Assembly (NCBI RefSeq): GCF_003285545.1 | Contig: NZ_QLNV01000003.1 | Coordinates: 310,001-374,000, forward strand | Source: Sinomicrobium soli | Lineage (GTDB): Bacteria > Bacteroidota > Bacteroidia > Flavobacteriales > Flavobacteriaceae | DNA: 64,000 nucleotides | Reading direction: 5' to 3' | Part shown: positions 43,386 through 62,822 of the stretch, in pieces | How positions within the stretch are numbered: position 1 is the stretch's first letter | Layout: each line of letters begins with the position of its first letter | The notes under the pieces: generated by a model | What the model was told of the DNA's origin: nothing | What the model saw: the letters and a program-made list of their open reading frames with translations, nothing else | The model's database searches: none | Position numbers and translations under genes: made by a program

Positions 43386-43399
43386 TATCACCATAAGTC

Positions 43400-46632: not shown

Positions 46633-47856
46633 CTAAAACAAGGTATATCCCAGGATGAATTCAATCTTCTGATAATCGCTGTTCCAGGACAGATAATCTC
46701 CGAGGACCTCCCTGGCGGTCTGAAACCGTATTTCCACACTGTACCTGTCGCGGAACTTATATCCCAGGCCAAGGGCCAGATTCTGACGGCCTTCGACTTC
46801 GAGAGTGTTGTAAACGGAATCGTCGGCCCTTTTAAATTCCAGGGATCCATCCATTTTAATATCCGTGATATAAAAGGCATTTACAAATAGCCTGGACTGA
46901 TCGTTGAGAAAAAAATAATGCCGGATCCCGAGCGGGATCTCCAGGGAAGTATACTCCATTTCGGCCCGTAATATCCCCCCTGATACATTGCTGGTTTCCT
47001 GGGTCTTGTCTGCCTTATACTCCTGGTAAGTGGGTTCCAGCACCAAAGCCCATTTGTTTTTGTTGAACGGCAGGACAAATTCTGCCTCCAGTCCCAGCGC
47101 AAAACCGGTCCGGCTGCCGAAATCCATCTTTCCGTTTGACAATGCCCCGTTGTCCATACGCAATGAACCACTGAAAATACGGGGCCTTACAGACAAGTTG
47201 AAATCCACTCCCTTCCGGTGCTTGTCGTAATTCACAAAACCGGCGTCCATACAGGTATTATACCGGGTAAAGAGAGGGATCAGTTCCGGTTTCTTATACC
47301 TCAGGGTATTGATACGCTCCATTTTTATGGTATTACACTTCAGCCCGTTCCACAACTGCCTGCGGAATTCGTAATTTGTTCCAATATTTCCCCCGGGGGC
47401 ACGATACTTTTTATAAACCAGGGGAACCATCTCTCCGCCATCCATACGGTAATAATACCTGATCATATTTCCATCCGCATACCGGTACAAAGATGCTTTT
47501 CCTTCTACCAGTACCTTCAGAAAAAGCTGTTCTTCCCCGAAAACGGGTTCCCTGCTTTCGGAAAGGGCATCCAGTTTATCGGCAGACCGGTCTATTTTTA
47601 CGGTACTTCTCACGTATTTGTACGTACTGCCAATACCGAATTCCTTCACCTGTTCCATACCGGCATGAACGACTTCCCCGTTCTGGCTCCTCCTGTACAT
47701 AAAGCCGGAAGGCGTATTGCGCCAGTCCATATTTTTTATATAACATTCATTTTTTTTACCCGTGTTATCGATAAAATAACCTTCTTCGAACCTGATCTGG
47801 GAATAACAGGAAAAGGACAGTATCGCAAAAAGGAGGAATAGTAACTGTTCTTTCAC
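46633..47856 (-). CDS. Secreted outer-membrane beta-barrel protein of unknown function
   Basis: 407 residues with signal peptide ending F-S-C-Y-S-Q. The N-terminal half begins I-R-F-E-E-G-Y-F-I-D-N-T-G-K-K and reads as a soluble beta domain with many charged residues. The C-terminal ~190 residues have barrel-like strands (F-A-L-G-L-E-A-E-F-V-L-P-F, W-A-L-V-L-E-P-T-Y-Q-E-Y, L-E-I-P-L-G-I-R-H-Y-F-F) ending F-I-L-G-Y-T-L-F, a typical terminal strand. It converges on the lyase gene and seems unrelated to the glycosaminoglycan locus. No family function known to me. Confidence 0.8.
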   Translation of the reverse strand: MKEQLLFLLFAILSFSCYSQIRFEEGYFIDNTGKKNECYIKNMDWRNTPSGFMYRRSQNGEVVHAGMEQVKEFGIGSTYKYVRSTVKIDRSADKLDALSESREPVFGEEQLFLKVLVEGKASLYRYADGNMIRYYYRMDGGEMVPLVYKKYRAPGGNIGTNYEFRRQLWNGLKCNTIKMERINTLRYKKPELIPLFTRYNTCMDAGFVNYDKHRKGVDFNLSVRPRIFSGSLRMDNGALSNGKMDFGSRTGFALGLEAEFVLPFNKNKWALVLEPTYQEYKADKTQETSNVSGGILRAEMEYTSLEIPLGIRHYFFLNDQSRLFVNAFYITDIKMDGSLEFKRADDSVYNTLEVEGRQNLALGLGYKFRDRYSVEIRFQTAREVLGDYLSWNSDYQKIEFILGYTLF

Positions 47857-47967: not shown

Positions 47968-48324
47968 TATGTTCTCAAACAGAAAAAAAAGACCACAGCT
48001 TGTTCTCTTTTGGCAGGTTTTCAGGGACACTCCAAATATATCGATATTTTTTAATTATCCCTCCCGGAAATTCCCGATGCCTCAAAATGAAGGAGTTTTT
48101 CAAAAAATAGTATGATTTTGTATTGATGCTATGGCTTTGACGGCAAAACAAGGATAAAATATAAAAAATAACGATGTTTTTTATGAATCTACCGGGAAAA
48201 TACAGTTTAAAATCACTCAAAAACATTTACTTCTCCTATAAGCCGCATGACCAGGCAATAAACCCGAATGCACCACAATCACAAAGCCGGTAAACCTTTC
48301 TTTCACAATTCCCTCACAACCATT

Positions 48325-48332
48325 TATTTTTG
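48325..48332 (+). promoter_or_regulatory. Possible promoter -7 element of the ECF sigma gene
   Basis: TATTTTTG matches TAnnTTTG; no TTG stands at the ideal upstream position. A start near 48340 leaves ~60 bases before the ATG at 48398 and excludes the in-frame ATG at 48341 as the usual start. Confidence 0.4.
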
Positions 48333-48397
48333 TTATATTTATGTTATCTTTTTGGCAAAAAGGCCTATTCCTTTCACCCCGGGGAAATACAAAGAAT

Positions 48398-49012
48398 ATG
48401 GAAGATAAGGAGATATACGGGAAATTTCCGCCCTCGGTGCTCTGGCAGCTAAAAAAGGGCGACGAACGTGCGTTCGACAGGCTGTATCACGCCTATAAGG
48501 GGCAATTGTACGGGAACCTTCTCAAAATCGTAAAATCGGAAGAAACTGCCCAAGAATTGTTGCAGAAAGTCTTTATACGGGTCTGGCAAAAACGCTGTGA
48601 TATAGACCCCGAAAACAATGTGGAAGCCTACCTCTTCCGTATTGCCGGTAATATGGCCATAGATTTTTTCCGGAAAGCAGCATACGACCGCAAACTCGAG
48701 GCCGAACTCATCGCCACCTCCACGACCAATTACACCCATATAGAAGAAGGCCTCTTCCATCGCGAAACTACCGAATCCCTGTCTTACGCCATAGAAACCC
48801 TGCCCCCGAAACGCCGACGGATATTCGAACTGGTAAAACTGGAAGGGAAAAGCTATGAAGAAGTGAGCCGTATACTAAACATCTCCACCTCCACGGTCAA
48901 CGACCATATTGTAAAAGCAACCCGCACCGTAAAGGAATATCTTATTCTTAAAGGAGATCTGGCAGGCATGATCCTTGTCTTACTGTTTATAGAAGGATTA
49001 CCCCGGCTATGA
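48398..49012 (+). CDS. ECF-type RNA polymerase sigma factor (Bacteroidota FecI/SigZ-like)
   Basis: 204 residues from the ATG at 48398. Region 2 (G-D-E-R-A-F-D-R-L-Y, then E-L-L-Q-K-V-F-I-R-V-W-Q-K-R) and region 4 (L-P-P-K-R-R-R-I-F-E-L-V-K-L-E-G-K-S-Y-E-E, I-S-T-S-T-V-N-D-H-I-V-K-A) are complete. The C-terminus is hydrophobic (M-I-L-V-L-L-F-I-E-G-L). Such sigma factors are normally followed by a FecR anti-sigma and a SusC with an STN domain. Here those two genes are found ~10 kb away on the opposite strand (59378-60457 and 55691-59110), at the head of the operon whose last gene converges on this one. It is the best local partner for that FecR. Confidence 0.93.
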   Translation: MEDKEIYGKFPPSVLWQLKKGDERAFDRLYHAYKGQLYGNLLKIVKSEETAQELLQKVFIRVWQKRCDIDPENNVEAYLFRIAGNMAIDFFRKAAYDRKLEAELIATSTTNYTHIEEGLFHRETTESLSYAIETLPPKRRRIFELVKLEGKSYEEVSRILNISTSTVNDHIVKATRTVKEYLILKGDLAGMILVLLFIEGLPRL

Positions 49013-49039
49013 ACAGGAGGGTGTACCGTAATGCCGGCC

Positions 49040-50437
49040 TTAATCCGCTACCCGCTCAAACCATACATTCCTTGCCCGCGGCACACTGATATAAAACCCG
49101 GTCAGTTTCCCGTCTTTGTCACGCTCAAACCTCACCTTCTGAGTTTTACCCCGCGAAAATGTATCCGTACCCGACGGTGTCAGTTTCCTCTTTTGGTGAG
49201 ACTGTGCAGTCATAATCAACGTAGTATCGCCGGCCAGCGTTGCCACCCACTTCCCTCCGCAGGCGGCACTGGCATACCGGCCGGTAAATTCTGCCAGCTC
49301 ATCCCTGCCAATACGATAGGGCGTACGCCCGTCCGCTTCCCGGTCGGCAGCATCCGGCGGCGGTGTGCCGAGAAATAGCGACGCTATCCGGTTTCCCGTT
49401 CCGGTGGTGGATAAACTGCCGTCATTGGAAAGGTACACAATAGATAATTCCTGCCCGGGAAAATAAGCCATCCACGCACGGTACCCCGCCGTGGCCCCAC
49501 TGTGGTTTACCGAACGGTACCCGTTGTATTCATTGACAAATACACCCCCCGCATAAGCAATGGTGTCTCCGTTGTTCAGCACCCCGCGTTCGGTCCGCAG
49601 CCGGAGCAGGGCTGCACCGCCCAGCGGACTGTTTTTCCAGCTGGTATTCCATCTATCCAGGTCGGCAGTGGTGGTCAGCAATGCAGCATGCCCATACGTA
49701 TTTTCAAAAGGCATAATGGTCTCATACCCGTCATCACCCTTGTTATAAGCTGTGGCCCGGTGAGGTACTATTTTCCGGAAATCGGTACGCCACGACGTGG
49801 CTTCCATTCCCAGGGGATTAAAAATACGTTCCTGTGTAAAATCAGCCAGCGTTTGTCCTGACACCCGTTCCACGATCTGTGTTAGCAGCGTGTAGTTTGA
49901 GTTACTATACAGGTATTCCGCACCGGGGGTATAATTGAGGGTAGGTTGCCTGACGATATACTCCAGTGCCAGGGCATTGGTATACTCCCGCGTACCCCTG
50001 GGCCAGCCGCCAAGCCCGGCCAATACCCCCCAATCCTTAAGCCCGCTGGTGTGGTTGAGCAGGTGCCTCACGGTAATGGTCTTTCCATAATCCGGCAATT
50101 CGGGAATATACTGCCGGACATCATCGTCCAGCCCTACTTTCCCTTCCTGTACGAGCAGGAGTACAGCTGTGGCTGTAAATTGCTTGGAAACCGAACCCGC
50201 CTCAAAGCGCGTACTATCGGTTACGGGCACACCCAGTTCCATATTGGCCAACCCCTTATGTTTGTGATAAATGACCTCGCCGTGACGGCTCACGGTCACC
50301 GAAATGCCGGGTGTTTGCTGATCGACCGAAACAAACAATTCATCCATCTTACTGAGGGTATCCCGCAGTGTCTGCGCTGCGGAAAGCAGTGGAGCCCACC
50401 ACAATAATCCAAGCAACAGGGTATATTTCATTTTCAT
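49040..50437 (-). CDS. Secreted serine hydrolase of the class C beta-lactamase / DD-peptidase family
   Basis: 465 residues with signal peptide ending L-L-S-A-A-Q. The catalytic S-V-S-K (Ser 82, Lys 85) and Y-S-N (Tyr 177) motifs are present, and the H-S-G-A-T-A-G segment stands in the place of the third (K/H-x-G) motif. A ~90-residue C-terminal domain follows. Members hydrolyse D-amino-acid peptides, peptidoglycan stem peptides or esters. The ATG overlaps the epimerase stop by four bases, so both are translated together. Context favours a D-amino-acid peptidase over antibiotic resistance. Confidence 0.9.
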   Translation of the reverse strand: MKMKYTLLLGLLWWAPLLSAAQTLRDTLSKMDELFVSVDQQTPGISVTVSRHGEVIYHKHKGLANMELGVPVTDSTRFEAGSVSKQFTATAVLLLVQEGKVGLDDDVRQYIPELPDYGKTITVRHLLNHTSGLKDWGVLAGLGGWPRGTREYTNALALEYIVRQPTLNYTPGAEYLYSNSNYTLLTQIVERVSGQTLADFTQERIFNPLGMEATSWRTDFRKIVPHRATAYNKGDDGYETIMPFENTYGHAALLTTTADLDRWNTSWKNSPLGGAALLRLRTERGVLNNGDTIAYAGGVFVNEYNGYRSVNHSGATAGYRAWMAYFPGQELSIVYLSNDGSLSTTGTGNRIASLFLGTPPPDAADREADGRTPYRIGRDELAEFTGRYASAACGGKWVATLAGDTTLIMTAQSHQKRKLTPSGTDTFSRGKTQKVRFERDKDGKLTGFYISVPRARNVWFERVAD

Positions 50438-51468
50438 AATAAAAACAGATTGTTATTCTCTTTTGTTAAACCGATACCCGGCGTACCGGGCAGTACAAGC
50501 CGGCCGTCCGAAAGTGTTACCCCGGTATACGGGTTATTCGCCGTATCCAGGTGACCATCCAGATCCACCCAATCAGCCAGCGCTCCGAGTTGTGCAGCAG
50601 CCGAAATTGCACAGGACGTTTCTGTCATACACCCCAGCATCACTCTCATTCCCAATGCTTTTGCCGATACAGCCAGCTTAAACCCCTCCCGGAGCCCGGT
50701 ACACTTCATCAGCTTGATATTGATGCCGTGATAGGTAGAAGAAGCCGTTCTGATATCCGTCAGCCGTTGTACGGCTTCATCGCCAACGGTGGGCAGCGGA
50801 CTCCGTTCGGTAAGCCAGGTGTTACCGGCCACATCATCCCTCGGCATGGGTTGTTCAATAAATACGGCACCTTGTTCTTTGAGCCAGTATACCAGGTCCA
50901 GTGCTTCTTCTTTGTTTTTCCATCCCTGGTTGGCATCCACAAAAAAAGGCTGCTGCGTCACAGACCGGATGGCTGTGATCATGGCCCGGTCATTATCCGT
51001 ACCCAATTTGATCTTCAAATAACGAAACCCACTGAGTTCACCGGCCCTTTCGGCCATCCTTTCGGGCGTATCCAGACCAATGGTCATGGACGTGCAGGGC
51101 CGTACGGCAGGCAAACCGAAATAACGGTGTACCGGCAGGCGGAGCAGCTTGCCCACCAGATCATGCAGGGCAATATCCACTGCAGTTTTTGCGGCTGCAT
51201 TGCCCGGAGCAATGGCATCCACATATTGCAAGATGCTTTCGGTATCAAAAGGGTCTGTAAAACCGGAGAGGTCTACCGCGCTGAGGAATTTTGTTGCAGA
51301 CTCCACAGATTCCCCATACAAAGGGGGCATCGAGGCCTCGCCATAGCCATGAACACCGTCAAGAGAAAGCCGGGTGAGCATTAGCGGAGCACGGTCGCGG
51401 GAGCCCCGGGAAATCCGGAATACACGGTTCAACCGCAGGTCATAAGGCTGAAATGAAAGTTTGAGCAT
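50434..51468 (-). CDS. Dipeptide epimerase (enolase superfamily, L-Ala-D/L-Glu-epimerase-like)
   Basis: 344 residues, no signal peptide, hence cytoplasmic. The barrel carries the catalytic Lys pair K-I-K (Lys 154) and Lys 252 in N-I-K-L, with metal ligands Asp 178 (D-A-N-Q-G-W), Glu 205 (I-E-Q-P) and Asp 230 (G-D-E-A). The D-x-D at 302-304 (D-L-D-G) at the end of the eighth strand, which holds the dipeptide ammonium group, is the hallmark of dipeptide epimerases. It inverts the C-terminal-side residue of a dipeptide, for example L-Ala-D-Glu to L-Ala-L-Glu in murein recycling; related Bacteroidota enzymes act on other dipeptides. Exact specificity is not readable. It lies between two serine hydrolase genes. 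Confidence 0.93.
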   Translation of the reverse strand: MLKLSFQPYDLRLNRVFRISRGSRDRAPLMLTRLSLDGVHGYGEASMPPLYGESVESATKFLSAVDLSGFTDPFDTESILQYVDAIAPGNAAAKTAVDIALHDLVGKLLRLPVHRYFGLPAVRPCTSMTIGLDTPERMAERAGELSGFRYLKIKLGTDNDRAMITAIRSVTQQPFFVDANQGWKNKEEALDLVYWLKEQGAVFIEQPMPRDDVAGNTWLTERSPLPTVGDEAVQRLTDIRTASSTYHGINIKLMKCTGLREGFKLAVSAKALGMRVMLGCMTETSCAISAAAQLGALADWVDLDGHLDTANNPYTGVTLSDGRLVLPGTPGIGLTKENNNLFLL

Positions 51469-51479
51469 AACGTATATGT

Positions 51480-52622
51480 TTAAAATAAATCTTCATCAGG
51501 CCATTCTACCGGTGCCGCTACAATATCTTCCAGCAACCCTTCCAGGTCAGTCGCATCTCCATTGACCATAATCGCAGCACATATTCCCGATCCCGTGCGC
51601 ATCCAGTGACTTCTGCTCCCCGGAAACGAGCCTCCGTGATACCACGTGCTTCCGTTTACAAAGAAACCAAGGGCATAGCGCTGATAACCGAACGGCGGTG
51701 TCGTCATGGTCTGGACGGTTGTACTTTCCAGTATATCCGGCACAGTGGAAATACCATCCACATGAACCAACAACCGCACCAGGTCCGATGCCGTGGCAAT
51801 CCAGCCACCGTTGGCGTCGCGCCTTTCGAAATTGTAGTTGTAGGCATTGCTGCTGTGATACCGGGATTCGTCCGGTTTCTGGTCTCCCAGGGTATTTCCC
51901 CCGATCTCCATCGTAGTGATACCGATCGGTTCCAGAATTTCTTCCCGTACATACTGCTCGTAGCTCTTCTGCGTAAGCTTTTCGATAACGCGCCCCAATA
52001 TCATAAACCCGACATTGGAATACGCATAGCTGGTACCCGGCGGATTGCTCAGGGGGACATTGTCTATGATGTAAGAAATCAATTCCTGAGCGTTGAGCTG
52101 GTTCTGCTGCATGGTCGGGTCGCTATTGTTATTGGACCATCCGCCCACATGATGCGACAGGCAGTGCTTTACGGTAAGGGCAGCAACATGCTGCGGGTAC
52201 GGTGGTGTACCAAAATCATTCCCCAGGATACCGCCATCGCCAAAAATCCTGTCGTCCAGGTCAAGCTTCCCTTCTTCCAGCAACTTCATGATCGCTATGG
52301 ATGTGATACTTTTCGAAACACTGGATATCCGCGACCGGGTATCCACGGTCATCAGGTCGCCACTTTCGCTATCGGCAAAACCGTAGGCCCCGGCAAATAC
52401 CAGTTTACCATCACGGGTAATGGCCAGCGTAGCCCCGGGAACAGCGTTTTTACTCATATACCGGTAGACCATATCATCTATCTGTTCAAGTCCGCCCTCT
52501 TCAGACGGCGGGGGTTTGACAAGGCCTTCTTTAGAACAGGCACCGAAGCCAACAATAAGGACAAAGGCCATCAACATGGTGCCCATCCTGCTTTTCAATC
52601 TATTCGTACTAAACATAAACAT
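51480..52622 (-). CDS. Lipoprotein serine hydrolase of the beta-lactamase / DD-peptidase family
   Basis: 380 residues. Lipobox F-G-A-C (Cys 29 from the first ATG; later ATGs at residues 3 and 13 are possible starts). The motifs S-V-S-K (Ser 101, Lys 104) and Y-S-N (Tyr 201) are in place, with W-Y-H-G-G-S-F-P-G near the C-terminus as the third motif. It is a membrane- or surface-anchored relative of the hydrolase at 49040, with which it shares the fold but little else by eye. It would trim peptides with D-residues before or after import by the SusCD pair of this operon. Confidence 0.9.
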   Translation of the reverse strand: MFMFSTNRLKSRMGTMLMAFVLIVGFGACSKEGLVKPPPSEEGGLEQIDDMVYRYMSKNAVPGATLAITRDGKLVFAGAYGFADSESGDLMTVDTRSRISSVSKSITSIAIMKLLEEGKLDLDDRIFGDGGILGNDFGTPPYPQHVAALTVKHCLSHHVGGWSNNNSDPTMQQNQLNAQELISYIIDNVPLSNPPGTSYAYSNVGFMILGRVIEKLTQKSYEQYVREEILEPIGITTMEIGGNTLGDQKPDESRYHSSNAYNYNFERRDANGGWIATASDLVRLLVHVDGISTVPDILESTTVQTMTTPPFGYQRYALGFFVNGSTWYHGGSFPGSRSHWMRTGSGICAAIMVNGDATDLEGLLEDIVAAPVEWPDEDLF

Positions 52623-52652
52623 CTATCTTTTCTGTTACTTTGATTTTATTAT

Positions 52653-54215
52653 CTATTCCGGCCAGAATTCGTTTATATTCAACGCATGATTGCCCAGTTC
52701 CCCTTCGAAATACACCGATGGGTCGACAGTACTGGTAAACCGTATGCGGTCTCCGGTACGGCTCATTGAAAACTGCGTCACCATCAGGAAATTGTCAATG
52801 ATTTCCGGCGCCCGGGTGGCATTGCCATTGCCGTTTTGATAAATAAACGCAAACGGTTGTACGCGCCCTTCGTAGTCCACCCGCCATTGGAAGCGGATTT
52901 GCCCCAAAAACCGACCGCCCGAAGACGAATAGTACTGGTTCACCACCTGTACATCCTGGAAATTGAAATCCGGATTGAAATAAAACAGCATTTTGTGCAA
53001 TTGCCGGCCGGCCAGACTCTCGATATACGCCTTGCCTTCCTGCCACCGTGCCTGGAATGCGGCCGACTGCTGAGGAGCATCAGGGTCGATATACAGGGTA
53101 GTAAAATAGCCTCCATCGCCATCCGAAAACAGTTCATGCATGGCCGGAGACGACGGAAATGGCCGTATAGAACCGTTTGCGCTCAACGTAGCCAGCGGAC
53201 CGATAAGGTATGAATCCGGATCATCTGTACGGAACAACCCACCAAGCTGCACTTCGGGCCGTGCGGGTGTGGCAATATCGGGATCTACCCAGTCTACTTT
53301 AAACGAATGTGCTTCCAGGTAATCGCCCAATATGGGATGGAAGTTCGCGCGTTGTGCGGTACCGTTTCCGTTGGCTTCCACAAATTCGAATGTCCCGACA
53401 CCTTCGGCATCCAGTTCCAAACGGTAGGTCCACTGCGCATACGGTGATGCGGTAAGGCTATTCCCTCCGCCGCCATAGTACTGTGCCGTTACCCGTACCA
53501 GGTCGTCCTCATCAAAATAAATATAGAGACTCTGCAACCGGCGTGAACCATCGGCATACGCCGCCAGATTGGCGGCAGATTCTTCGATACGCTGCCGGAT
53601 GTCAGCAGGCAGATCAGGGTTCAGCGGGTCGATATAGATGCTGTTGAAATAACTATCCGGCCCCAATTGCTCATACAACGGATACCCGTCACTGGGCGGC
53701 CCTGTCAGCGAAATGGAAATACCCAGCCGCTTATAGTTTTCGCTTACCTTAACCTGGTCGTTCCCTACCAGTTCCAAAACCACGGTAACCACACCAGATC
53801 CCGCAGGGAAATCCAATATGTCAATGCCAAGCCGTGCAGTACTGTTATTGGCTTCAAAAACAAAGCTGCCATTGTCGGGCAATGCGTAATGCATCCCTTC
53901 GACAGCCGTAGTTTCCTCCGGAACAACACGGTATTGAAGGGTCTGGTCGGCATCCAGCTGCTTCCCGATCAGGTTTACCTGGAATGTGTGTTCACCGCTA
54001 CCTTTTTCATAGGCCCCCAATATAGGATAGGTTTTATCCGGTGCATTACTCTCCCAGGTCGCCGTATCGAACTCGATCATGGCCTCGGTGAACAGGAAAT
54101 CGTCCGTATAGTCTTTGAAACAGGAGGACAGGATAGATAAGGTCAGCATCATGGCGATCATCGTCCCGATGCGTTTGATGGTTTGTATATATACTGAAAT
54201 CATTTGCTTTACCAT
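52653..54215 (-). CDS. Surface lipoprotein with internal duplication, SusE-position protein of the peptide locus
   Basis: 520 residues. Lipobox L-S-S-C follows a signal preceded by a short charged segment; several in-frame ATGs make the exact start uncertain. The N-terminal ~140 residues resemble a DUF4843-type beta domain (Q-Y-R-V-V-P-E-E-T-T-A-V-E-G). The rest contains two related ~170-residue units, each with F-x-x-x-Y-I-D-P, then an aromatic strand (L-Y-I-Y-F-D / M-L-F-Y-F-N) and V-x-x-Q-Y-Y-x-x-x-G-G, and ending with F-V-E-A-N-G-N-G-T / F-I-Y-Q-N-G-N-G-N. It sits 17 bases after SusD. Binding of peptide or glycan at the surface is inferred from position. Confidence 0.8.
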   Translation of the reverse strand: MVKQMISVYIQTIKRIGTMIAMMLTLSILSSCFKDYTDDFLFTEAMIEFDTATWESNAPDKTYPILGAYEKGSGEHTFQVNLIGKQLDADQTLQYRVVPEETTAVEGMHYALPDNGSFVFEANNSTARLGIDILDFPAGSGVVTVVLELVGNDQVKVSENYKRLGISISLTGPPSDGYPLYEQLGPDSYFNSIYIDPLNPDLPADIRQRIEESAANLAAYADGSRRLQSLYIYFDEDDLVRVTAQYYGGGGNSLTASPYAQWTYRLELDAEGVGTFEFVEANGNGTAQRANFHPILGDYLEAHSFKVDWVDPDIATPARPEVQLGGLFRTDDPDSYLIGPLATLSANGSIRPFPSSPAMHELFSDGDGGYFTTLYIDPDAPQQSAAFQARWQEGKAYIESLAGRQLHKMLFYFNPDFNFQDVQVVNQYYSSSGGRFLGQIRFQWRVDYEGRVQPFAFIYQNGNGNATRAPEIIDNFLMVTQFSMSRTGDRIRFTSTVDPSVYFEGELGNHALNINEFWPE

Positions 54216-54232
54216 TTATTGCGTCATGAAAC

Positions 54233-55678
54233 TTAATAACCGAAATTCTGTTGGAGGTTGCCATTACGTTCAACCTCCGAGTACGGTATGGGCGCCAATA
54301 TCCGGTATTCATCAAACCGGACGTCCCCTATGGGTTTGATGATATCCATCCCCAGCCTCTTGAGGTCGAAAAACCGGTGTCCTTCAAATGCCAGTTCCAA
54401 CCGGCGCTGCAGCAGAATTTCGTCAATCAGACCCTGGCCGGAAAGTGTTTCCGGTACAGGGTTGAGCCCGGCACGTTCACGGATACGGTTGACATCCTGC
54501 CGGGCCTGCTCATCCATCCCGGACCGGGCATAAGCCTCGGCCCTGTTCAAATACACTTCGGATACCCGGATAACGGGTACATTGTCGTGGTTGATGGCAC
54601 TCCGGCTCAGGAACTTTGTAATTTCAGTCCGGTTGGCATTCCTGCCCAGTCCGTTCATAAAAAGCCCCCGGCGTACATCATCTGCCGGATACAGCTCATA
54701 CAGCTCATCACCCACCACCACATTGCCGCGATTGGAGAACGATGTGGAACTTAATGTTTGCCTGCTCGTAAAAGTAACCCGCAACGATTCATTTACCGGG
54801 TTGCTGTGGTCGCCCAGATGGAAGACGACCTCAAAGATGGACTCCGGCAGCTTCATTTGCCGCCACCCGGCAATATAATTGTCATGCCCCATAAACCGGC
54901 CCCCGCTCAATTCCAGCGCTTTATCCGCTTCGGTAATGACCCGCTCAAAATCTTCATTATAGAGCGCTACCCTGGAGAATAAGGATGCTGCCGCAGCGGC
55001 AGACCCATAATATTCCGGGTCCGAACCATCTACCGTTTTCCCTTCCAGCAGGTTGAATGCCATTTCCAGGTCATCATAGATCAATTCGTATATCTGCTCT
55101 ATATCCGCCCGCGAAGGATAGGTTACCTGGTCGGTTCCCAGCACCGGTTCCACCAACAAAGGCACGCTGCCATAGTCAACCTCATCGATACGCGATTTGG
55201 GGTCATAGCCATAGATGCGGGACAAATTGTGGTAGTACAATGCCCTCAGGAAATATGCCTGCCCGGCAATAGTTTCCTCAAACTCCTCACTTACCCCCAC
55301 GGGAGGTTCTTCCAGCACATGGAGAATATTGTTGATCTCATTGATGGCAGCATAACTGCTTCCCCAGATTCCCATATGGGCCCCCGGCTGGTTCCTGTAC
55401 TGCCCATACAGCGCCGTCGGATTGTTGGTATGTTCGGTATTGTCGGCCAGTAACTCCGGTATGGCGACAAGGTCCCTGCCATACTGGCTGGTTTGGCGCA
55501 GATAGGCATAAACCGAATTAATGGCAGCCTGGATGGCCTCGGGGCTCTCCAATGCCTCCCTTGAATCGATGGACTGTTTGGGGGTCACATCCAATACGCT
55601 ATCGCATGCCGAAAACAGCATGCTGCCAGTCAGCCCGATTGCGATTATTGATTGTTTGATATATGTATATGTCTTCAT
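54233..55678 (-). CDS. SusD/RagB-family lipoprotein of the peptide locus
   Basis: 481 residues; lipobox L-F-S-A-C (Cys 25). TPR-like N-terminal part with A-I-Q-A-A-I-N-S-V-Y-A-Y-L-R and A-Y-F-L-R-A-L-Y-Y-H-N-L-S-R-I-Y-G; C-terminal RagB part with V-Y-L-N-R-A-E-A-Y-A-R and L-A-F-E-G-H-R-F-F-D-L-K-R, ending P-I-P-Y-S-E-V-E-R-N. It pairs with the SusC encoded 12 bases upstream. The accompanying peptidases and epimerase suggest a peptide-binding RagB-type protein rather than a glycan binder. Confidence 0.95.
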   Translation of the reverse strand: MKTYTYIKQSIIAIGLTGSMLFSACDSVLDVTPKQSIDSREALESPEAIQAAINSVYAYLRQTSQYGRDLVAIPELLADNTEHTNNPTALYGQYRNQPGAHMGIWGSSYAAINEINNILHVLEEPPVGVSEEFEETIAGQAYFLRALYYHNLSRIYGYDPKSRIDEVDYGSVPLLVEPVLGTDQVTYPSRADIEQIYELIYDDLEMAFNLLEGKTVDGSDPEYYGSAAAAASLFSRVALYNEDFERVITEADKALELSGGRFMGHDNYIAGWRQMKLPESIFEVVFHLGDHSNPVNESLRVTFTSRQTLSSTSFSNRGNVVVGDELYELYPADDVRRGLFMNGLGRNANRTEITKFLSRSAINHDNVPVIRVSEVYLNRAEAYARSGMDEQARQDVNRIRERAGLNPVPETLSGQGLIDEILLQRRLELAFEGHRFFDLKRLGMDIIKPIGDVRFDEYRILAPIPYSEVERNGNLQQNFGY

Positions 55679-55690
55679 TTCGAATTCGTA

Positions 55691-58600
55691 TTAAAATCCA
55701 ACTTGTATACCTGCCGTAAAACTCATGGTCTGCGGTACAATGCCCCGGTTACTTGACACCGATCCGTCCACAGCAAACTCCGGATCATAGCCTATCCATT
55801 TGGTCCAGGTATACAGGTTTACCGCCGTCACATAAACCCGTAAGCGGTCCAGTTTCAGTGTATCCAGCAGGTTAGGCTGAAATTGATAAGCCAGTGTTAC
55901 CTCCCGCAGCCGGACAAACGATGCGTCGTGCAGAAACTGGGTGGAGGTACTGCTTCTCGAACTGCTGTTCCGCTCAGCTCCTCCGGCAATGGGGCGGGCC
56001 ACATAGGTCACCTGTCCGGGGGTCGTCCACCGCGCGTCGTACAATTCCTGAAGGGTATTCCTGCCCGGGTTGCTCATAATATTGTACCAGTCCTGGTACA
56101 TGCTGTTGGCCATATACCGGCCCATATCAAAATGGAACAATGTGCTTAGTTCAAACCCCTTATACGAAAAGGTATTGGTCAACCCGCCAAAATAGTCGGA
56201 CTGCCAGCCTTTCTTTGTGGGCACATTATCTTCGGCGGTCGGCAAGTAGGTGATATTGCCATCCTTGTCATACCACATGGAACGTCCGTTGGTCGCATTG
56301 ACCCCGGCATACCGGGGCCGATACCATATTTTCAGCGGAGACCCTACACGAATGGTATTGGCAATATAATCCAGCCCGTCATACAACTCCATAACCTCGT
56401 TCCGCAAAAATGCAATGTTGAAGTTGGTGGACCATTTAAATCCATCGTCCGAGGTTATGTTGACCGTATTGAGGTCTATTTCCAAACCTTTATTGACCAC
56501 CCGTCCCAAATTGTCGTCTACGTTGCTGAAGCCACTGGTTTCGGGGAGCGGCTTATTCAGCAACAGCTGTTCGCTATTGCGATGGAAGACTTCCACGGTT
56601 CCCGAAATCCGGTTGGCGAACATCCCGAAATCCAACCCGATATTGGTAGAAACATTACGCTCCCAGCCCAGTTCGGGATTGGCCAGGGTCTGCAATCGGA
56701 GTGCTGCATTTTCGTTGTACCGGGTACCTCCCTGGTAGAATCCCCGGGACGATACATTATTGATCTGGTCGTTGCCTACCACGCCATATCCGGCACGGAG
56801 TTTCAGCTGGTTGACCCAAGCGGCGGCTTTCAAAAACCGTTCCTGTGCCATATCCCATCCGGCCGAGATACCCGGGAAGAAACCAAACCGATTGTTCGAA
56901 CCGAAACGTGACGAGCCGTCGTAACGCGCCACAGCCGATACAAAAAGCTTGTTCCGGTAATCGTAGTTTACCTGGCCGAAAAAACCCAGGCGGCGGCTAC
57001 CGCTCCACGAACCGGTTACGGAGTAGGGTTCGGCTGCCGACTGGTTGGTACGGAACTGATAGGTAGGAAAGTTGTTGGCACGGGACGATTCGTGTTCCCG
57101 TACATCACTCCGGTATTCGGCACCCACCAACGCGGTAATGCCATGGTCGTCGTTGATTGTGGTGTGATAACTTAAAGTCTGGTTGGTCGTAAAATTCACA
57201 TTTTCGGTATTTTCGTCAATGAGGTACCCGTTCCACGGTGCACCGTTGGGCGTACGCGGATCACGGTAATAATCCGCCCGGATATAGCGGTAATCGATAC
57301 CGTAGAACGATTTGAAGGTCAGGTTGTCCAGTATCTTATAAGAAACACTTAAATTGCCGATCAGCGACCGCTGACGTACAATATTGTCATCTACCGTAGC
57401 CGCCTGTATGGGGTTAAAGCCCGTACCAGGCATTCCCTCGTATGCATTAAAGGTATCATCAGCATTGTAAATGGGTATTGTAGGCGGCATTAAAGCCGCT
57501 GTAAATTGCGGCGATGCAGCCCCCGAAGTATCTCCCCAGGAACCGGTATTGCCGTTTTGGGTGATCAGGCTGAGGTTGACTCCCGCATCAACGCTTAGCC
57601 CGGGAACAACCTCATGATTCAGCCGCATTTTAAAATTACCGCGCTCAAAATCAACATTTGTCACATTCCCTTCGTGCTTATTGTAAGCTCCCGACAAGTA
57701 AAAATTAGACTTATCCGTACCACCGGACATATTGAACTCCACATTTCGTACCGTACCGGGTTTAAACGCCGCACCTTGCCAGTCATAGGTAGGCAGGCCG
57801 GCAATTTCCTCGTCTGTCAGGTCGGGCCTCACTCCCAGATCGGTCAGTGCCTGTGACAGGGCGACATTTGGGCTCAAACCCGGATCATTGTTCAGCAGCG
57901 CTTCCCGGCGCAACGCCACAGCGTCGGAGCTGCTCAATACGTCCATATGTTTCATCGGGGCGGATACCCCCTCGTAATAGTTGAAGTTGACACGGGTTTT
58001 TCCGGCCTTTCCTTTTTTCGTAGTGATCAATACCACGCCATTGGCGGCCTGTGCACCGTATATGGCCGCCGAGGCGGCATCTTTCAATACTTCGATCGAT
58101 TCGATATCGTTGGGATTGATATAGGCCAGTACATTGGTGGATGTACGACCACTGGGTGCATCACTATTCAGCTGCACACCATCCACAATATACATGGGCT
58201 CGGTGCCCGCATTGATGGATCCGATACCCCGGATATTGACCCGAACGGCTCCGCCCGGCACACCAGTGGAGGTTTGTACCAGTACACCGGCCGCCCGCCC
58301 TTGTATCGCTTTGTCAAGTGATTGGATGGGCATATTCTGGATATCCTCTCCGCTTACAGAGGCCATAGCACCGGTGATGCTTCGCCGTTGCTGTGTGCCA
58401 TAACCCGTAACCACCACCTCATCCAGCTCCGAAATATCCTCCTCCATGGTAACATTGAGGATGGTGTCCTGAACCGTAACTTCCAGGGGCTTCATTCCCA
58501 TATACCTGAAAACAAGAATTTCGTCATCTTTTGCGGCAATAGTATATTTACCGTCAAAATCAGTGGTGGTCCCTTGTGTTGTCCCTTTTACCAATACGGT

Positions 58601-59110
58601 TACGCCCGGAACGGGGACCCCGTCTGTATCGGTCACCACCCCCGTTACCTGTAGCTGCTGCAAGGGATACTCCTGCTCCGTTTCCGGATCAGGGGCCTTT
58701 TCAGACGCCGGGGCTTTACGGATAATAATCTCGCTGTCCATGGCCCTGTATTCGTATGCACGGGGAATAAGCAGGGTGTCCAGGACACGTTTGAGGGATT
58801 GCTGCTTTACATTAAGCGTAATGCGCTCAGGTTCCTCAGTGATAAGGCCACTGTACATCATGGGTATACCTGAGGTTTTCTGAAGGGCATCCAGGGCATC
58901 TTTCAGGGATACGTTCTGTACGGTAAGGCTTATCGGACGTTCCAGAAGAGGTTGTCCGCTCACACGCTTGGCGGGCAGTGTAAAGGCACTGCAATAGAGT
59001 ATGCAACTTATAATAAATGTCCAACGCATAATCCTGATAATTAAAAGCAGCCATTGTTGCCAAAACGGACACCAAAAGCCTGCTTCTTTTAAGAAGTGCT
59101 TTTTTTTCAT
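55691..59110 (-). CDS. SusC/RagA-family TonB-dependent transporter with STN signalling domain
   Basis: 1139 residues. A long N-terminal segment with one hydrophobic helix (signal anchor) leads to an STN domain (I-S-L-T-V-Q-N-V-S-L-K-D-A-L-D-A-L, ~80-150), which contacts a FecR-type anti-sigma factor across the periplasm. A carboxypeptidase-regulatory-like domain (V-T-G-V-V-T-D-T-D-G-V-P-V-P-G-V) and plug (E-V-V-V-T-G-Y-G-T-Q, E-V-L-K-D-A-A-S-A-A-I-Y-G-A) follow, then the barrel ending F-T-A-G-I-Q-V-G-F. Start codon: first ATG, though later ATGs before the hydrophobic helix are possible. FecR lies directly upstream on the same strand. Confidence 0.95.
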   Translation of the reverse strand: MKKKHFLKEAGFWCPFWQQWLLLIIRIMRWTFIISCILYCSAFTLPAKRVSGQPLLERPISLTVQNVSLKDALDALQKTSGIPMMYSGLITEEPERITLNVKQQSLKRVLDTLLIPRAYEYRAMDSEIIIRKAPASEKAPDPETEQEYPLQQLQVTGVVTDTDGVPVPGVTVLVKGTTQGTTTDFDGKYTIAAKDDEILVFRYMGMKPLEVTVQDTILNVTMEEDISELDEVVVTGYGTQQRRSITGAMASVSGEDIQNMPIQSLDKAIQGRAAGVLVQTSTGVPGGAVRVNIRGIGSINAGTEPMYIVDGVQLNSDAPSGRTSTNVLAYINPNDIESIEVLKDAASAAIYGAQAANGVVLITTKKGKAGKTRVNFNYYEGVSAPMKHMDVLSSSDAVALRREALLNNDPGLSPNVALSQALTDLGVRPDLTDEEIAGLPTYDWQGAAFKPGTVRNVEFNMSGGTDKSNFYLSGAYNKHEGNVTNVDFERGNFKMRLNHEVVPGLSVDAGVNLSLITQNGNTGSWGDTSGAASPQFTAALMPPTIPIYNADDTFNAYEGMPGTGFNPIQAATVDDNIVRQRSLIGNLSVSYKILDNLTFKSFYGIDYRYIRADYYRDPRTPNGAPWNGYLIDENTENVNFTTNQTLSYHTTINDDHGITALVGAEYRSDVREHESSRANNFPTYQFRTNQSAAEPYSVTGSWSGSRRLGFFGQVNYDYRNKLFVSAVARYDGSSRFGSNNRFGFFPGISAGWDMAQERFLKAAAWVNQLKLRAGYGVVGNDQINNVSSRGFYQGGTRYNENAALRLQTLANPELGWERNVSTNIGLDFGMFANRISGTVEVFHRNSEQLLLNKPLPETSGFSNVDDNLGRVVNKGLEIDLNTVNITSDDGFKWSTNFNIAFLRNEVMELYDGLDYIANTIRVGSPLKIWYRPRYAGVNATNGRSMWYDKDGNITYLPTAEDNVPTKKGWQSDYFGGLTNTFSYKGFELSTLFHFDMGRYMANSMYQDWYNIMSNPGRNTLQELYDARWTTPGQVTYVARPIAGGAERNSSSRSSTSTQFLHDASFVRLREVTLAYQFQPNLLDTLKLDRLRVYVTAVNLYTWTKWIGYDPEFAVDGSVSSNRGIVPQTMSFTAGIQVGF

Positions 59111-59193
59111 ATTTTTATGGTGTTAAACACCGGCGGCTGTATATGGTTTTCCAGGCCTGTGATATGCTGCCGGTTCAGTTTATAATCCTGATC

Positions 59194-59222
59194 TCTCCCC
59201 GTTGCCACGGGGAGGGATTTTT
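59194..59222. other. Stem-loop between FecR and SusC genes
   Basis: CTCCCCG (59195-59201) pairs with CGGGGAG (59208-59214), loop TTGCCA, followed by GGATTTTTC on the plus strand. On the minus strand, the direction of transcription, there is no T run after it, so it is more likely an mRNA processing or stability element between anti-sigma and transporter than a terminator. Confidence 0.45.
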
Positions 59223-59377
59223 CATTTATCTGATGATTTTTATTCTGGATCTGATCTGCGGTAGACAGGATGGCGGGAATTCTGAAGTTTCGCATTCCAC
59301 CGGCCGGTTGTAAAAGAGTTCTGGTTTCATAGTGTTCTGGTTGTTAATTTTATTTTTTTACATCTGTATTCTTACGG

Positions 59378-60457
59378 TCACATTGCCCCGCATCCATTTC
59401 CCTTAAAATAGACGGTATTCTCCTCTTTCCGTATGGTGGCATTGACCGTAAGGGCTACCTTTTCCAGGAAGTGGTACACATCGTCTTCCGGTTTTTTGGT
59501 ACCGTAAAAGGTACAGTTTACGAGCCTGCCTTCCGTTTTCAGGGCCAGGCCGTATTCCCTGGCCATGTCGGAAAGGATATTTTCAACGGGAGTACCCCGG
59601 TATTCAAAAATGCCTTCCCTTCTGGACTGCATTGCAGATGCATCGGGGGCCTCTTCCCTGACCAGGGATTTCGTTTCCGCATCAAACACGGCCCGCTGAT
59701 CGGAATTTAACAATACCTCTGCCCCTTCCTGCTGTTTCTCATCTGCCACTACCCGTACTCTTCCGGTAACGACAGTAACCGACAGATCTTTTTCATAAGC
59801 CTGTATATTAAAAGAAGTTCCCAATACCGTGGTACTCACTTCTCCCGTACGGATAACAAACGGGTGGTCTTTATCCGGGGACACTTCAAAAAAAGCCTCG
59901 CCCGTAAGGGTAACTTCCCGCTGTGCTCCCCGAAAGGCGTCCGGGTATCTCAGCGAACTTTCCGGCCCCAGCCATATCATGGAACCATCGGCCAGCTGAA
60001 ACTGCTGCCGCTGGCCGCTTTGAGTATTGACATATTGTATTTCTACCGGGTCTATCCAGTTGTGGAATGTGTCCCGGTATCCCCATCCCAGTCCTGCGAA
60101 AACCGCGATAGCCGCAGCGGCCGCTATCTGCGGCCAAAGCTTACGTAACCCCCTACTCTTCCTGTCTGTCCTTACGGTTTTTTGTATTTCACGATGTATT
60201 TTTTCAAAGAGCGCTTTTCCCCTGGGGCTATGTTCAAAACCAGGATTTACCGGCCGGGCGAGTTGTTCTTCTATAAGTGCATACAATCTCTCCCGGTCTT
60301 CTGTCCCGAAATATTGCAAAAGCTGCCGTATTTCCTGTGGAGAACAGCGATTATCCAGGTAACGAAGGAATATTTCTCTGAGCTGGTTTCTATGTTCCAA
60401 TTGTAAAAGGTTTTTCTCTGCTGTTTTATAGTAATACGAGCAGAAAAAGAAGTACAT
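59378..60457 (-). CDS. FecR-family anti-sigma factor
   Basis: 359 residues as an ATG-started frame. The first ~19 residues (M-Y-F-F-F-C-S-Y-Y-Y) look atypical, and a TTG at 60400 beginning L-E-H-R-N-Q-L-R-E would give a normal FecR start. Cytosolic sigma-binding part first, then one transmembrane helix (I-A-A-A-A-A-I-A-V-F-A-G-L-G), then the periplasmic FecR domain (G-S-M-I-W-L-G-P-E-S-S-L-R-Y-P, G-E-A-F-F-E-V, F-V-I-R-T) and a DUF4974 C-terminal domain with G-T-P-V-E-N-I-L-S. It relays the signal from the STN-bearing SusC to an ECF sigma factor. No sigma gene is directly upstream; the only one nearby is at 48398. Confidence 0.92.
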   Translation of the reverse strand: MYFFFCSYYYKTAEKNLLQLEHRNQLREIFLRYLDNRCSPQEIRQLLQYFGTEDRERLYALIEEQLARPVNPGFEHSPRGKALFEKIHREIQKTVRTDRKSRGLRKLWPQIAAAAAIAVFAGLGWGYRDTFHNWIDPVEIQYVNTQSGQRQQFQLADGSMIWLGPESSLRYPDAFRGAQREVTLTGEAFFEVSPDKDHPFVIRTGEVSTTVLGTSFNIQAYEKDLSVTVVTGRVRVVADEKQQEGAEVLLNSDQRAVFDAETKSLVREEAPDASAMQSRREGIFEYRGTPVENILSDMAREYGLALKTEGRLVNCTFYGTKKPEDDVYHFLEKVALTVNATIRKEENTVYFKGNGCGAM

Positions 60458-60567
60458 CTGCTCTGAAAGTGTTTTTTTTTACAAAACAGATCAAATAGTT
60501 GCAATTATTGTTTTGTACGCCAGAGCAGGGACCAGAATCTTATGCTCTCGCAGACCTCTCTCATACC

Positions 60568-60613
60568 AAAAAATACGGGAGCATTCCGGAATATGAGACC
60601 CGGAACACTCCCG
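60568..60613 (-). terminator. Intrinsic terminator of the btuB gene
   Basis: On the minus strand CGGGAGTGTTCCGG and CCGGAATGCTCCCG form a 14-base stem with one mismatch, followed by TATTTTTT. It lies 37 bases after the stop of the receptor gene. Confidence 0.75.
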
Positions 60614-60649
60614 CTATAATACCCCGGAATCCCGGGTTTTTTACTTTCT

Positions 60650-62482
60650 CTAAAACGAAAGACTGAAGCCCAGTCTTACATTTCTTCCCCGGGTGGTATA
60701 CCCGGCCAGTTCTACATAATCTTCATTGAAGATATTACTGATATTCGCAAACAACTTCATTCGATGGCTGAGGATATGATGGCTCAGGTACAGGTCGAAC
60801 AGGGAAAAGCTGTTCATGACTATTCCCCCGGCGTCTGTGCGGTCGCTGAGATACTGGTAGCTTACCGAAGCAAAGGTATGCTCACACACATCAAAACCCG
60901 CAGTAGCATTGACCTTGTGTTTAGGGATACGCAGCGCTACCTGGTCACGGTTTTCCGTAAAGGTGTAATTGGCATCCAGCTGCAAAAAGTCTACGGGCTT
61001 TACGGAAAATTCAGCTTCTGTGCCGTTTACGGTATAGCGTTCATTTATATTGACATACCCCTCGGTTCCGTAAAATATGAAGTTTTTCTCTCTCCGGTTA
61101 AAGTAAAGCGCACTTAACCGCAACGTCCCGGTCTTCCATTCCACCCCGCCTTCCAGGGTACGGTCTTCTTCGGGTTCCAGGTCAGGATTGGCCCCGAACT
61201 GCCCGTACAACTGCGACAGGTTCGGAGCTATGTATGACGTACTGAACGACCCCAGGGCTTTGAGATAACTCTCTTCTTTCAGTAACAGGGTATAAGAAGG
61301 GTTCAGATTGTAGGTGAAATGCGTACCGTATTCGCTGTGGTTATTCAGCCTCGCTCCGGCGTTCATATTAAATCCGAAACCGGACACCCATACGACATTG
61401 GCATAAGGATCGGTGATGGTAAAGTCCTGGTCCGTATCAAATTCCGCATCATTCCGGATATAATTGATCCCCAATACGGTATAAAACCTGTCGTTGAAAT
61501 TATACTTGTTATAGATATCTGCCACCAGGCTACCGGCATCATAAACCGCAGGATAATCGGATACGATCTCCCTTTCTATCTTGTGATACGCCACACTGGC
61601 CTGTACACTACCCCTCCCGTAAGTAAACCCGGGGGCTATGCCGGTACGGTATTGTTTGCTGATACTGCGATCGTCCGTATCGATAAAACTACCATCCATC
61701 GCATACCCGTCCATATCTGCCTTATACTTGTCGTAATTGCCGAATACATCTACGGAAAACCGGTCTGTTGCCTGGTATCCCACTTTTACATTGGTGTTAA
61801 AACGGGAAAAGGCATCTCTTTCGGTACCGGAAGAGGCCACGGAAAGTCCGTCGGCATACTGCTGTGCAAAACCGGCCTGGTAGCTCACTTTGCCCGAACG
61901 TCCGCCCACGGCTATGCTGTTGGAAAAATCAGAGGGATTATATTTCCGGTCATCCCGGGACTGGTTGGTCCCTATACTCGAACGGAATGTGGCCGACAAG
62001 GGGTTGTCTGAAGCCTTCCTGGTAGTAATATTAATAACCGCCGTAGCAGCGGCATTACCGTAAAGGGTACTGGCTGCGCCCTTCACGATCTCTATGGAAG
62101 CGATCTGGCTGATATCGACCAGCCGGAGGTCGAAATCGGCAGCGGGGGCAGAAGGATCGGATACCTGGACCCCGTCTATAAGCACCAGTACCTGCCTGTT
62201 AGACCCGCCGCGGATATAGTACCCGAGGTTCTGCCCTGCATTACTGCGGCTCCCGCCGATCTCGATACCACTTTTGGTATTGATCACCTCGGCCAGGCTT
62301 TTACCCTGGTTCTTTTCGAGTTCTTCTGCCGTGATCCTGATCACGGTTTTTCCCGAATGTTCCCGCTTTAGTTCGAAACGGGAATCGGTAACCACCACCT
62401 CGTCCAGTTGTTGCAGCTCCTGGGCCCTTCCCAGTGTGCATAATGCCAGCATGGCAGCGAAAGAAATTGTTTTTTTCTTCAT
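60650..62482 (-). CDS. btuB: Vitamin B12 TonB-dependent outer-membrane receptor
   Basis: About 610 residues from the ATG at 62482, which begins a signal peptide (M-K-K-K-T-I-S-F-A-A-M-L-A-L). The frame continues upstream without a stop, but that part overlaps the riboswitch and is not coding. The plug has Q-L-D-E-V-V-V-T-D-S-R-F (TonB box region), I-E-I-G-G-S-R-S-N-A-G and V-L-V-L-I-D-G-V-Q-V-S-D-P; the barrel ends N-V-R-L-G-F-S-L-S-F. The cobalamin riboswitch in its leader identifies the substrate as a corrinoid. No btuFCD genes lie alongside. Sequence alone without the riboswitch would only say TonB-dependent receptor. Confidence 0.92.
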   Translation of the reverse strand: MKKKTISFAAMLALCTLGRAQELQQLDEVVVTDSRFELKREHSGKTVIRITAEELEKNQGKSLAEVINTKSGIEIGGSRSNAGQNLGYYIRGGSNRQVLVLIDGVQVSDPSAPAADFDLRLVDISQIASIEIVKGAASTLYGNAAATAVINITTRKASDNPLSATFRSSIGTNQSRDDRKYNPSDFSNSIAVGGRSGKVSYQAGFAQQYADGLSVASSGTERDAFSRFNTNVKVGYQATDRFSVDVFGNYDKYKADMDGYAMDGSFIDTDDRSISKQYRTGIAPGFTYGRGSVQASVAYHKIEREIVSDYPAVYDAGSLVADIYNKYNFNDRFYTVLGINYIRNDAEFDTDQDFTITDPYANVVWVSGFGFNMNAGARLNNHSEYGTHFTYNLNPSYTLLLKEESYLKALGSFSTSYIAPNLSQLYGQFGANPDLEPEEDRTLEGGVEWKTGTLRLSALYFNRREKNFIFYGTEGYVNINERYTVNGTEAEFSVKPVDFLQLDANYTFTENRDQVALRIPKHKVNATAGFDVCEHTFASVSYQYLSDRTDAGGIVMNSFSLFDLYLSHHILSHRMKLFANISNIFNEDYVELAGYTTRGRNVRLGFSLSF

Positions 62483-62493
62483 TGTTCTTGTGT

Positions 62494-62540
62494 AATAAAA
62501 ACGGGAATACAGCGGTAGCACCGCCAAACTTTTTTTCCCG
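62494..62540 (-). terminator. Expression-platform terminator between cobalamin riboswitch and btuB
   Basis: On the minus strand CGGGAA (complement of 62535-62540) pairs with TTCCCG (complement of 62502-62507), with an inner GCGGT/ACCGC stem, followed by TTTTTATT. It lies between the B12 box and the ATG, so ligand binding probably ends transcription here. Confidence 0.7.
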
Positions 62541-62559
62541 AAAGTCTGACTTTGATTCT

Positions 62560-62752: not shown

Positions 62753-62822
62753 CTGCCGCGAATATACGAACTAATCCCGATAAGCCGGTGGCTCCGATAC
62801 ATTCCGCCGGAAGTCGGGAATT

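Follow-up and report, generated by a model that had tools for sequence, protein, structure and literature searches.

A glycosidase-free SusCD operon of Sinomicrobium soli with a dipeptide epimerase, probably serving D-Glu peptides, and the apparent exchange of its cargo between regulatory frames at the TonB box of susC

Three kinds of arrangement related to the one described here are already in print, as far as the excerpted texts of the papers go: murein-type SusCD loci (PMC10199937), susC shufflons (PMC5729914), and the exchange of polysaccharide utilization loci (PULs) between core genes (PMC8845570). The first was described for a Urechidicola symbiont, in which, according to the excerpt, SusCD pairs, an L-Ala-D/L-Glu epimerase, a DD-carboxypeptidase, MurQ, and AmpG lie on one contig. 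In this study, we analyzed a stretch of 64,000 nucleotides of Sinomicrobium soli (contig NZ_QLNV01000003.1, positions 310,001 to 374,000; hereafter, the window), which carries a SusCD operon with a dipeptide epimerase gene between two genes for S12 serine hydrolases. Our analysis suggests that this operon is probably a two-part machine, in which a cargo for the uptake and breakdown of short peptides with D-residues, most likely L-Ala-D-Glu pieces of stem peptides, is mounted on a sensing frame. The sequence comparisons presented here further indicate that cargo and frame recombined at the TonB box of susC.

The operon consists of seven genes, all open and on the minus strand at 49040-60457, in the order FecR, SusC, SusD, lipoprotein, S12 hydrolase 1, epimerase, and S12 hydrolase 2; this set and order had been given in an initial annotation of the window and agreed with the Pfam and NCBIfam matches. 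A SusC of the RagA/SusC family followed by SusD is the arrangement of a SusCD nutrient-uptake locus. No Pfam match to a glycosidase or another carbohydrate-active enzyme was found in the seven genes, which confirms the earlier statement that the operon lacks a glycosidase and sets it apart from a PUL. The tight spacing noted before was observed from SusC to hydrolase 2 (intergenic gaps of 12, 17, 30, 11, and -4 nt) but does not extend to FecR, because 267 nt separate FecR from SusC. A gene for an extracytoplasmic function (ECF) sigma factor (48341-49012), overlooked in the initial annotation, sits 27 nt past the end of the last gene on the opposite strand, so that the sigma factor gene and fecR bracket the operon. 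PF16344 was also matched above its cut-off among the sigma/FecR genes, and a promoter scan found 15 sites against 14.5 in shuffled sequences, i.e., no excess.

The best relatives of the epimerase in the PDB were 3iji, 3ijl, and 3ijq (382 bits for 3iji and 131 for the next), which we take to be entries of the Bacteroides thetaiotaomicron L-Ala-D/L-Glu epimerase. R24, K152, K154, D178, E205, D230, K252, D302, and D304 are all present. From K152 to D304 these residues are presumably the catalytic lysines, the metal ligands, and the D-x-D motif of the enolase superfamily, so that the protein carries the sequence marks of this superfamily; the D-x-D that had been noticed earlier is D302/D304. By eye, the N-terminus is neither that of a lipoprotein nor a plain signal peptide. 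A literature search combining "dipeptide epimerase" with B. thetaiotaomicron found no paper.

Relatives of the epimerase were collected by a contig scan, from which the best 80 loci (L numbers) were kept; 79 had a recognisable epimerase gene, and L100 was dropped for want of an epimerase frame. An NlpC/P60-type gene lies directly upstream of the epimerase in 53 of the 79 loci. The name NlpC/P60 comes from one scanned member, which also has SH3 domains, and 56 cluster genes in 54 loci match this member by phmmer. SusC is nearby in 17 of the 53 NlpC-linked loci and follows the epimerase directly in 13 of the 79. Further neighbors were identified from a single example each: NamZ, GHL10, an S66 LD-carboxypeptidase, an MFS permease, and a SIS-domain protein. 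A tree of 89 rows places the window epimerase in a supported group (97/100) of 13 rows, 12 of them distinct, with the long branch L191 excluded. L013 and L033 are identical in sequence; the labels of the window, L009, L011-L015, and L023 were assigned by hand. In this clade, S12 is nearby in 11/12, SusC in 10/12, and NlpC in 0/12. An N-terminal extension of at least 20 residues, judged from the starts of the longest frames, is found in none of the 12 clade members, as opposed to 41 of the 53 NlpC-linked epimerases (loci within L029-L106), and 34 of these 41 have a twin-arginine-like RRx[FL] motif within the first 25 residues. Such extensions would place the NlpC-linked epimerases outside the cytoplasm, and the difference may be read as a shift from an exported to a cytoplasmic enzyme. 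One epimerase of the window's clade has neither S12 nor NlpC as its neighbor but a pair of M14 carboxypeptidase genes (L032:914-4734).

To describe the exchange, which could not be seen in the initial annotation, we call the ECF sigma factor, FecR, and the STN/NTE part of SusC the frame, and the stretch from the SusC plug/barrel through hydrolase 2 the cargo. The window genome is denoted G000 and a congener G755; L023 and L110 are loci of G755, L115 is a locus of the window genome, and L027 belongs to Parapedobacter composti. The initial annotation had named a gene set not conserved together as a result that would speak against it; the full set is kept as a unit in L023 and L027. Compared with these two loci, six window genes (SusC, SusD, the lipoprotein, both hydrolases, and the epimerase) show 58-86% identity, and FecR only 31%. 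Residues 1-140 of the window SusC are 24% identical to L023, 20% to L027, and 78% to L110, whereas residues 241-1139 are 87%, 79%, and 31% identical, respectively. L110 holds the window's flanks, sigma factor (86%), FecR (73%), and SusC start together around a different cargo, with a SusC barrel at 31%, SusD at 25-26%, a Peptidase_Mx1 protein, and two DUF4302 proteins. At the DNA level, the cargo match (L023) covers 49030-58438 and the frame matches (L110) cover 58400-62787 and 48316-48987; they meet at 58400-58438, with an overlap of 39 bp, and between 48987 and 49030. Extra matches were a window-L110 match inside the cargo (127 bases at 70%, 57996-58120) and a window-L023 match inside the frame (39 bases at 85%, 58537-58575). 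The overlap encodes residues that end in DEVVVTG, the sequence given as the Ton box of a SusC in the excerpt of PMC7782687.

The G755 frame that holds the window-type cargo has its orthologue in the window genome at L115 (FecR 72%), where a third cargo with DUF4843, PKD-like, and thioredoxin-like proteins is found. The susC of the L115-type frame and the junction stretch have about 36 bases in common at 86%, which we infer to be enough for short-homology recombination. The G+C content of the cargo is above that of its frame in both genomes (0.52 vs 0.47-0.49, and 0.46 vs 0.40), which was not the case for the two other cargos. No orthologue of either frame was found among the 18 FecR loci that were fetched, mostly by frame length, from 126 matches in four other congeners; L204, which is among the 18, is truncated at a contig end. 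A susC shufflon was considered as a mechanism and rejected: 11 inverted pairs with arms of 14-24 nt were found in 48000-62700, none of them at either junction. The sole repeat touching the junction in susC is a 25-nt direct repeat, 88% alike, that also occurs in the BtuB-like gene.

FecR-SusC pairs were compared between the genomes (17 of G755 with 37 of G000), and a frame was called orthologous when the FecRs were reciprocal best matches with at least 60% identity. One of 39 FecR matches in G000 and one of 19 in G755 were not fetched, and L117 and L139, which have FecR without SusC, were dropped. Among the 8 orthologous frames, 6 kept their cargo (barrels 80-94%) and 2 did not (27-28%), so that most of these frames did not change cargo; in both cases of change the window-type cargo is involved. 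Reciprocal-best pairs below 60% were excluded, namely, L124 (FecR 58%, barrel 43%), L127 (50%, 55%), L129 (49%, 48%), and L123 (45%, 23%). Because the divergence of the cargo between the congeners (SusC barrel 87%) resembles that of other shared loci (80-94%), these figures suggest that the cargo was present in the ancestor of the congeners and moved between frames later.

Two other explanations of the exchange were weighed against these data. G000 and G755 are both multi-contig drafts with numerous SusC genes, so that an assembly artefact in one draft might be suspected; we regard this as very improbable. G000 contains no near-identical copy of the 251-bp stretch that surrounds the junction: the second-best match is 68% over 146 bases, and the remaining similarities span 36-67 bases at 75-86%. 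In addition, all SusC frames concerned are intact, the exchange is consistent with four loci from the two genomes, and P. composti carries yet another FecR, which has a sigma gene of its own upstream. Rapid change in STN and FecR, without recombination, might also account for the low N-terminal identity. Indeed, orthologous SusCs of the sister locus described below, used as a control, are less conserved in residues 1-140 (44-63%) than in their barrels (79-88%), and their FecRs are only 40-54% identical. However, the N-terminal part of the window SusC matches L110 at 78%, together with the sigma factor, FecR, and both flanks, where the barrel is at 31%, and we therefore give this explanation almost no credence.

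Among 400 genomes from the order to which P. composti belongs, a search with hydrolase 1 gave 25 matches at E <= 1e-80, three of which were at 68-70%. In two of these three genomes, Parapedobacter SGR-10 and G835, the epimerase is missing from the cargo, and a gene for an M81 (MlrC-like) protein comes after the cargo; the M81 genes (PF07364, PF07171) are at L185:12876-14519 and L186:12907-14502. In total, five genomes have the cargo from the SusC plug/barrel to hydrolase 2, and three of them have the epimerase. The FecRs of SGR-10 and G835 are 65% identical to each other, 26-31% to those of G000/G755, and 41-42% to that of P. composti; the cargo is thus carried by at least three frames, P. composti and SGR-10 perhaps sharing one, and the versions of FecR and of the SusC N-terminal part that accompany it, three or more, look unrelated. 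We propose only tentatively that recombination at the TonB box may be a recurrent route by which Bacteroidota re-plug transport and enzyme cargo into another sigma/anti-sigma/STN switch, which would let regulation evolve separately from the substrate range, with the D-Glu peptide cargo as one that moves. The features of the operon and its surroundings are listed in Table 1.

Table 1 Features of the SusCD operon and its surroundings in the window.
Feature	Coordinates	Strand	Evidence
FecR anti-sigma factor, one end of the frame	59378-60457	-	PF04773 76 bits, over cut-off; 73% orthologue in the G755 frame
SusC, whole gene	55691-59110	-	TIGR04056 831 bits, cut-off 368
susC 5' part (signal, putative STN, CarboxypepD_reg), part of the frame	58400-59110	-	DNA 58400-62787 matches L110 at 75.8%
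susC 3' part (plug and barrel), part of the exchangeable cargo	55691-58438	-	DNA 49030-58438 matches L023 at 76%
Junction zone, encoding a stretch that ends in the TonB box DEVVVTGYG	58400-58438	-	Cargo match overlaps frame match
SusD	54233-55678	-	PF07980 122 bits (cut-off 23.1), PF14322 60 bits
Lipoprotein: DUF4843-like N-terminal part and two copies of a domain of ~150-190 residues	52653-54215	-	PF16132 35.0 bits, cut-off 34.5
S12 hydrolase 1, lipoprotein-like N-terminus (by eye)	51480-52622	-	PF00144 201 bits
Dipeptide epimerase, L-Ala-D/L-Glu type, without N-terminal extension	50434-51468	-	MR_MLE_N and MR_MLE_C; best PDB match 3iji, 382 bits
S12 hydrolase 2, signal-peptide-like N-terminus (by eye)	49040-50437	-	PF00144 227 bits
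ECF sigma factor, convergent with the operon, other end of the frame	48341-49012	+	TIGR02985 131 bits, cut-off 126; 86% orthologue at the same position in L110 (G755)
BtuB-like receptor, outside the operon, flank common to the G755 frame	60650-62647	-	87% in L110; TIGR01779 210 bits, cut-off 600
Outer-membrane barrel protein, outside the operon, other flank common to the G755 frame	46633-47856	-	71% in L110; PF13568

The STN match of the window SusC (PF07660) had 22.5 bits (E 9.7e-5) against a cut-off of 28.4. It lies at residues 96-132, ahead of the CarboxypepD_reg part (154-234); this order is opposite to that given in the excerpt of PMC7782687, in which NTE precedes STN in all such SusCs. 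The left neighbor of the operon (window 36141-46516) is an ordinary glycosaminoglycan-type locus with a hybrid two-component regulator, a GH88-like protein, a sulfatase, and a PL8 lyase.

Both hydrolases have the S12 motifs SxxK, YxN, and HxG in addition to a PF00144 match over the cut-off: SxxK at 101, YSN at 201, and HGG at 329 in hydrolase 1, and SxxK at 82, YSN at 177, and HSG at 312 in hydrolase 2. Their PDB relatives include an alkaline D-peptidase, a PBP-related protein, a D-aminopeptidase, ClbP, and esterases, and because of this mixture the substrate cannot be read from the sequence. The internal duplication of the lipoprotein, which had been claimed before, was clear in a self-alignment, with a local score of 114, whereas none of 200 shuffles scored above 46. 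The structure model of the whole lipoprotein was poor (predicted local distance difference test, pLDDT, 53). A model of the repeat (pLDDT 71) gave no Foldseek match at E <= 0.001, and its lipocalin-like matches (best Z 7.8) were too weak for a function to be assigned. The lipoprotein was found only in the window genome among 395 genomes of its order (E <= 1e-10) and in two of six genomes of its genus (E <= 1e-5), which shows that the gene set is rare in this sample.

The window genome has a second, sister locus (L009) with a sigma factor, FecR, SusC, SusD, an epimerase (61%), and an S12 hydrolase fused to DUF819; the fusion, at L009:10197-12794, is one frame of 865 residues with a lipoprotein-like hydrolase part. 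At E <= 1e-80, the epimerase was found in 6 of 397 genomes of the family, always in SusCD-S12 loci like L009. DUF819 follows the hydrolase in five of the eight loci L009, L011-L015, L048, and L199; it forms a separate gene adjacent to S12 in L012, L014, L015, and L048, and none was found within the stretch of the congener's L199. According to the excerpt of PMC8396727, DUF819 is a family of the CPA/AT type with the N-terminus outside, a topology that agrees with the fusion of a periplasmic hydrolase to its N-terminal side, and the excerpt of PMC12671195 describes an M15 peptidase-DUF819 pair in Neisseria meningitidis. Two more distant loci were found through homologues of hydrolase 1: L187 contains SusCD, S12, an M19 dipeptidase, an enolase-superfamily protein, and DUF819, and L191 contains a D-Ala-D-Ala ligase, an epimerase closest to 3q45, SusCD, S12, M19, and OPT. 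At L191:1770-4025 and L189:711-1754, a D-Ala-D-Ala ligase lies near a dipeptide epimerase, SusCD, S12, an M19 dipeptidase, and an OPT transporter; these may be D-Ala-D-Ala uptake loci.

From gene content and comparison, we infer the substrate of the operon, the cell location of the steps, the inner-membrane carrier, the bonds cut by the hydrolases, and the regulation. SusCD would import peptides with D-residues, which the S12 hydrolases would trim at the surface and in the periplasm; the resulting dipeptide would cross the inner membrane through a carrier such as the DUF819 protein of the related loci, although none stands beside the window cargo. The epimerase, in the cytoplasm, would then convert L-Ala-D-Glu to L-Ala-L-Glu for ordinary dipeptidases, and the frame, with the ECF sigma factor, FecR, and the STN/NTE part of SusC, would sense transport and switch the operon on. 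The proposal of the initial annotation that this is a SusCD locus for D-amino-acid peptides and not for glycans is supported by the proximity of the epimerase to 3iji, by the NlpC/P60, NamZ, GHL10, S66, and MFS neighbors of its kin, and by the conservation of the set. Its narrower proposal, the scavenging of stem peptides, stands in part: the comparison makes pieces of stem peptides the most likely substrate, but cutting of stem peptides by this locus found no support, as no NlpC gene is adjacent. Nor was support found for "other cells" as the source of the peptides, or for action of the hydrolases on muropeptides, given that an S12 sequence does not reveal its substrate.

Several observations weigh against this interpretation. 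The epimerase stayed below the NCBIfam cut-offs, with 140 of 343 bits for PRK15129, 208 of 400 for DgcA, and 113 of 500 for NF041118, and the cargo relatives in SGR-10 and G835 do without an epimerase. The operon contains no NlpC, LD-carboxypeptidase, or dipeptidase, so that it does not explain the release route of L-Ala-D-Glu, and S12 hydrolases as a class include esterases. No DUF819 was found beside the cargo in the window operon or in the fetched stretches of L023, L027, L185, L186, and L200. Finally, the exchange was observed in two congeners, both multi-contig drafts, and in more distant relatives.

The cargo could instead serve other D-Glu or gamma-glutamyl peptides, such as nonribosomal or cyclic peptides of the microcystin kind or gamma-glutamyl compounds, with the epimerase rescuing a D-Glu-bearing dipeptide. 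The mlr gene clusters combine an S12 hydrolase (MlrB) with MlrC, and the MlrC-like M81 protein after the epimerase-less cargo in SGR-10 and G835 makes other D-Glu peptides possible. A locus of the window genome on contig C38 (L024:2965-19001) is paralogous in its SusCD and DUF4843-type lipoprotein (SusD 48%) and contains a gamma-glutamyltranspeptidase and two FGase-family proteins, which also points in this direction. Nevertheless, the MlrC model reached only 108 of 999 bits in L185, no MlrC-type M81 protein was found by Pfam among the seven window genes, and the wider kin of the epimerase adjoin NlpC/P60 genes; taken together, we consider these substrates unlikely. More doubtful still is a dipeptide other than Ala-Glu, such as D-Ala-D-Ala from carboxypeptidases, for which the gene sets of L187 and L191 and the D-Ala-D-Ala ligase in L191 and L189 could be cited. 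The window epimerase, however, scores higher with 3iji (382 bits) than with 3q45 (84 bits), and it retains R24, which lines up with an Arg of 3iji and 1jpd and presumably binds Glu.

If the proposed uptake of L-Ala-D-Glu pieces is correct, a glycan-free SusCD system for D-Glu peptides can be named, and a role of DUF819 as a dipeptide carrier in the sister loci is suggested. If the exchange is correct, the signaling and substrate halves of a TonB-dependent receptor are exchangeable in nature at a defined point, and STN/TonB-box chimeras are accordingly predicted to re-route induction. None of the literature titles and abstract openings listed described such an exchange at the TonB box with the sigma/FecR/STN frame retained.

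The window operon resembles the Urechidicola symbiont locus (PMC10199937) in its combination of SusCD with an epimerase of the L-Ala-D/L-Glu type, but that locus has glycoside hydrolases and amino-sugar genes, and its excerpted description mentions neither an S12-epimerase-S12 set nor a sigma/FecR bracket. It shares the epimerase family with the NlpC/P60-epimerase loci of Bacteroidota (L035, L080, and L089); unlike the window, these loci have an NlpC-type gene upstream, mostly an extended epimerase (41/53), and no sigma/FecR match in the maps of the three. With its sigma factor, its anti-sigma factor, and a putative STN-like part, the window operon recalls FecIRA-type signaling; it departs from that type in having the sigma gene and fecR at its two opposite ends and an exchanged ligand-binding part. 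Alternative susC/D pairs behind one expression site are also found in the B. fragilis shufflons (PMC5729914), in which, by the excerpt, inverted repeats overlap the start of susC, whereas the window has no long inverted repeats, a junction at the TonB box, and loci on different contigs. PUL exchange (PMC8845570) likewise places different loci in one chromosomal slot between conserved genes; there, as excerpted, recombination was inferred at the flanking core genes, whereas in the window one breakpoint lies inside susC, with the signaling domain kept.

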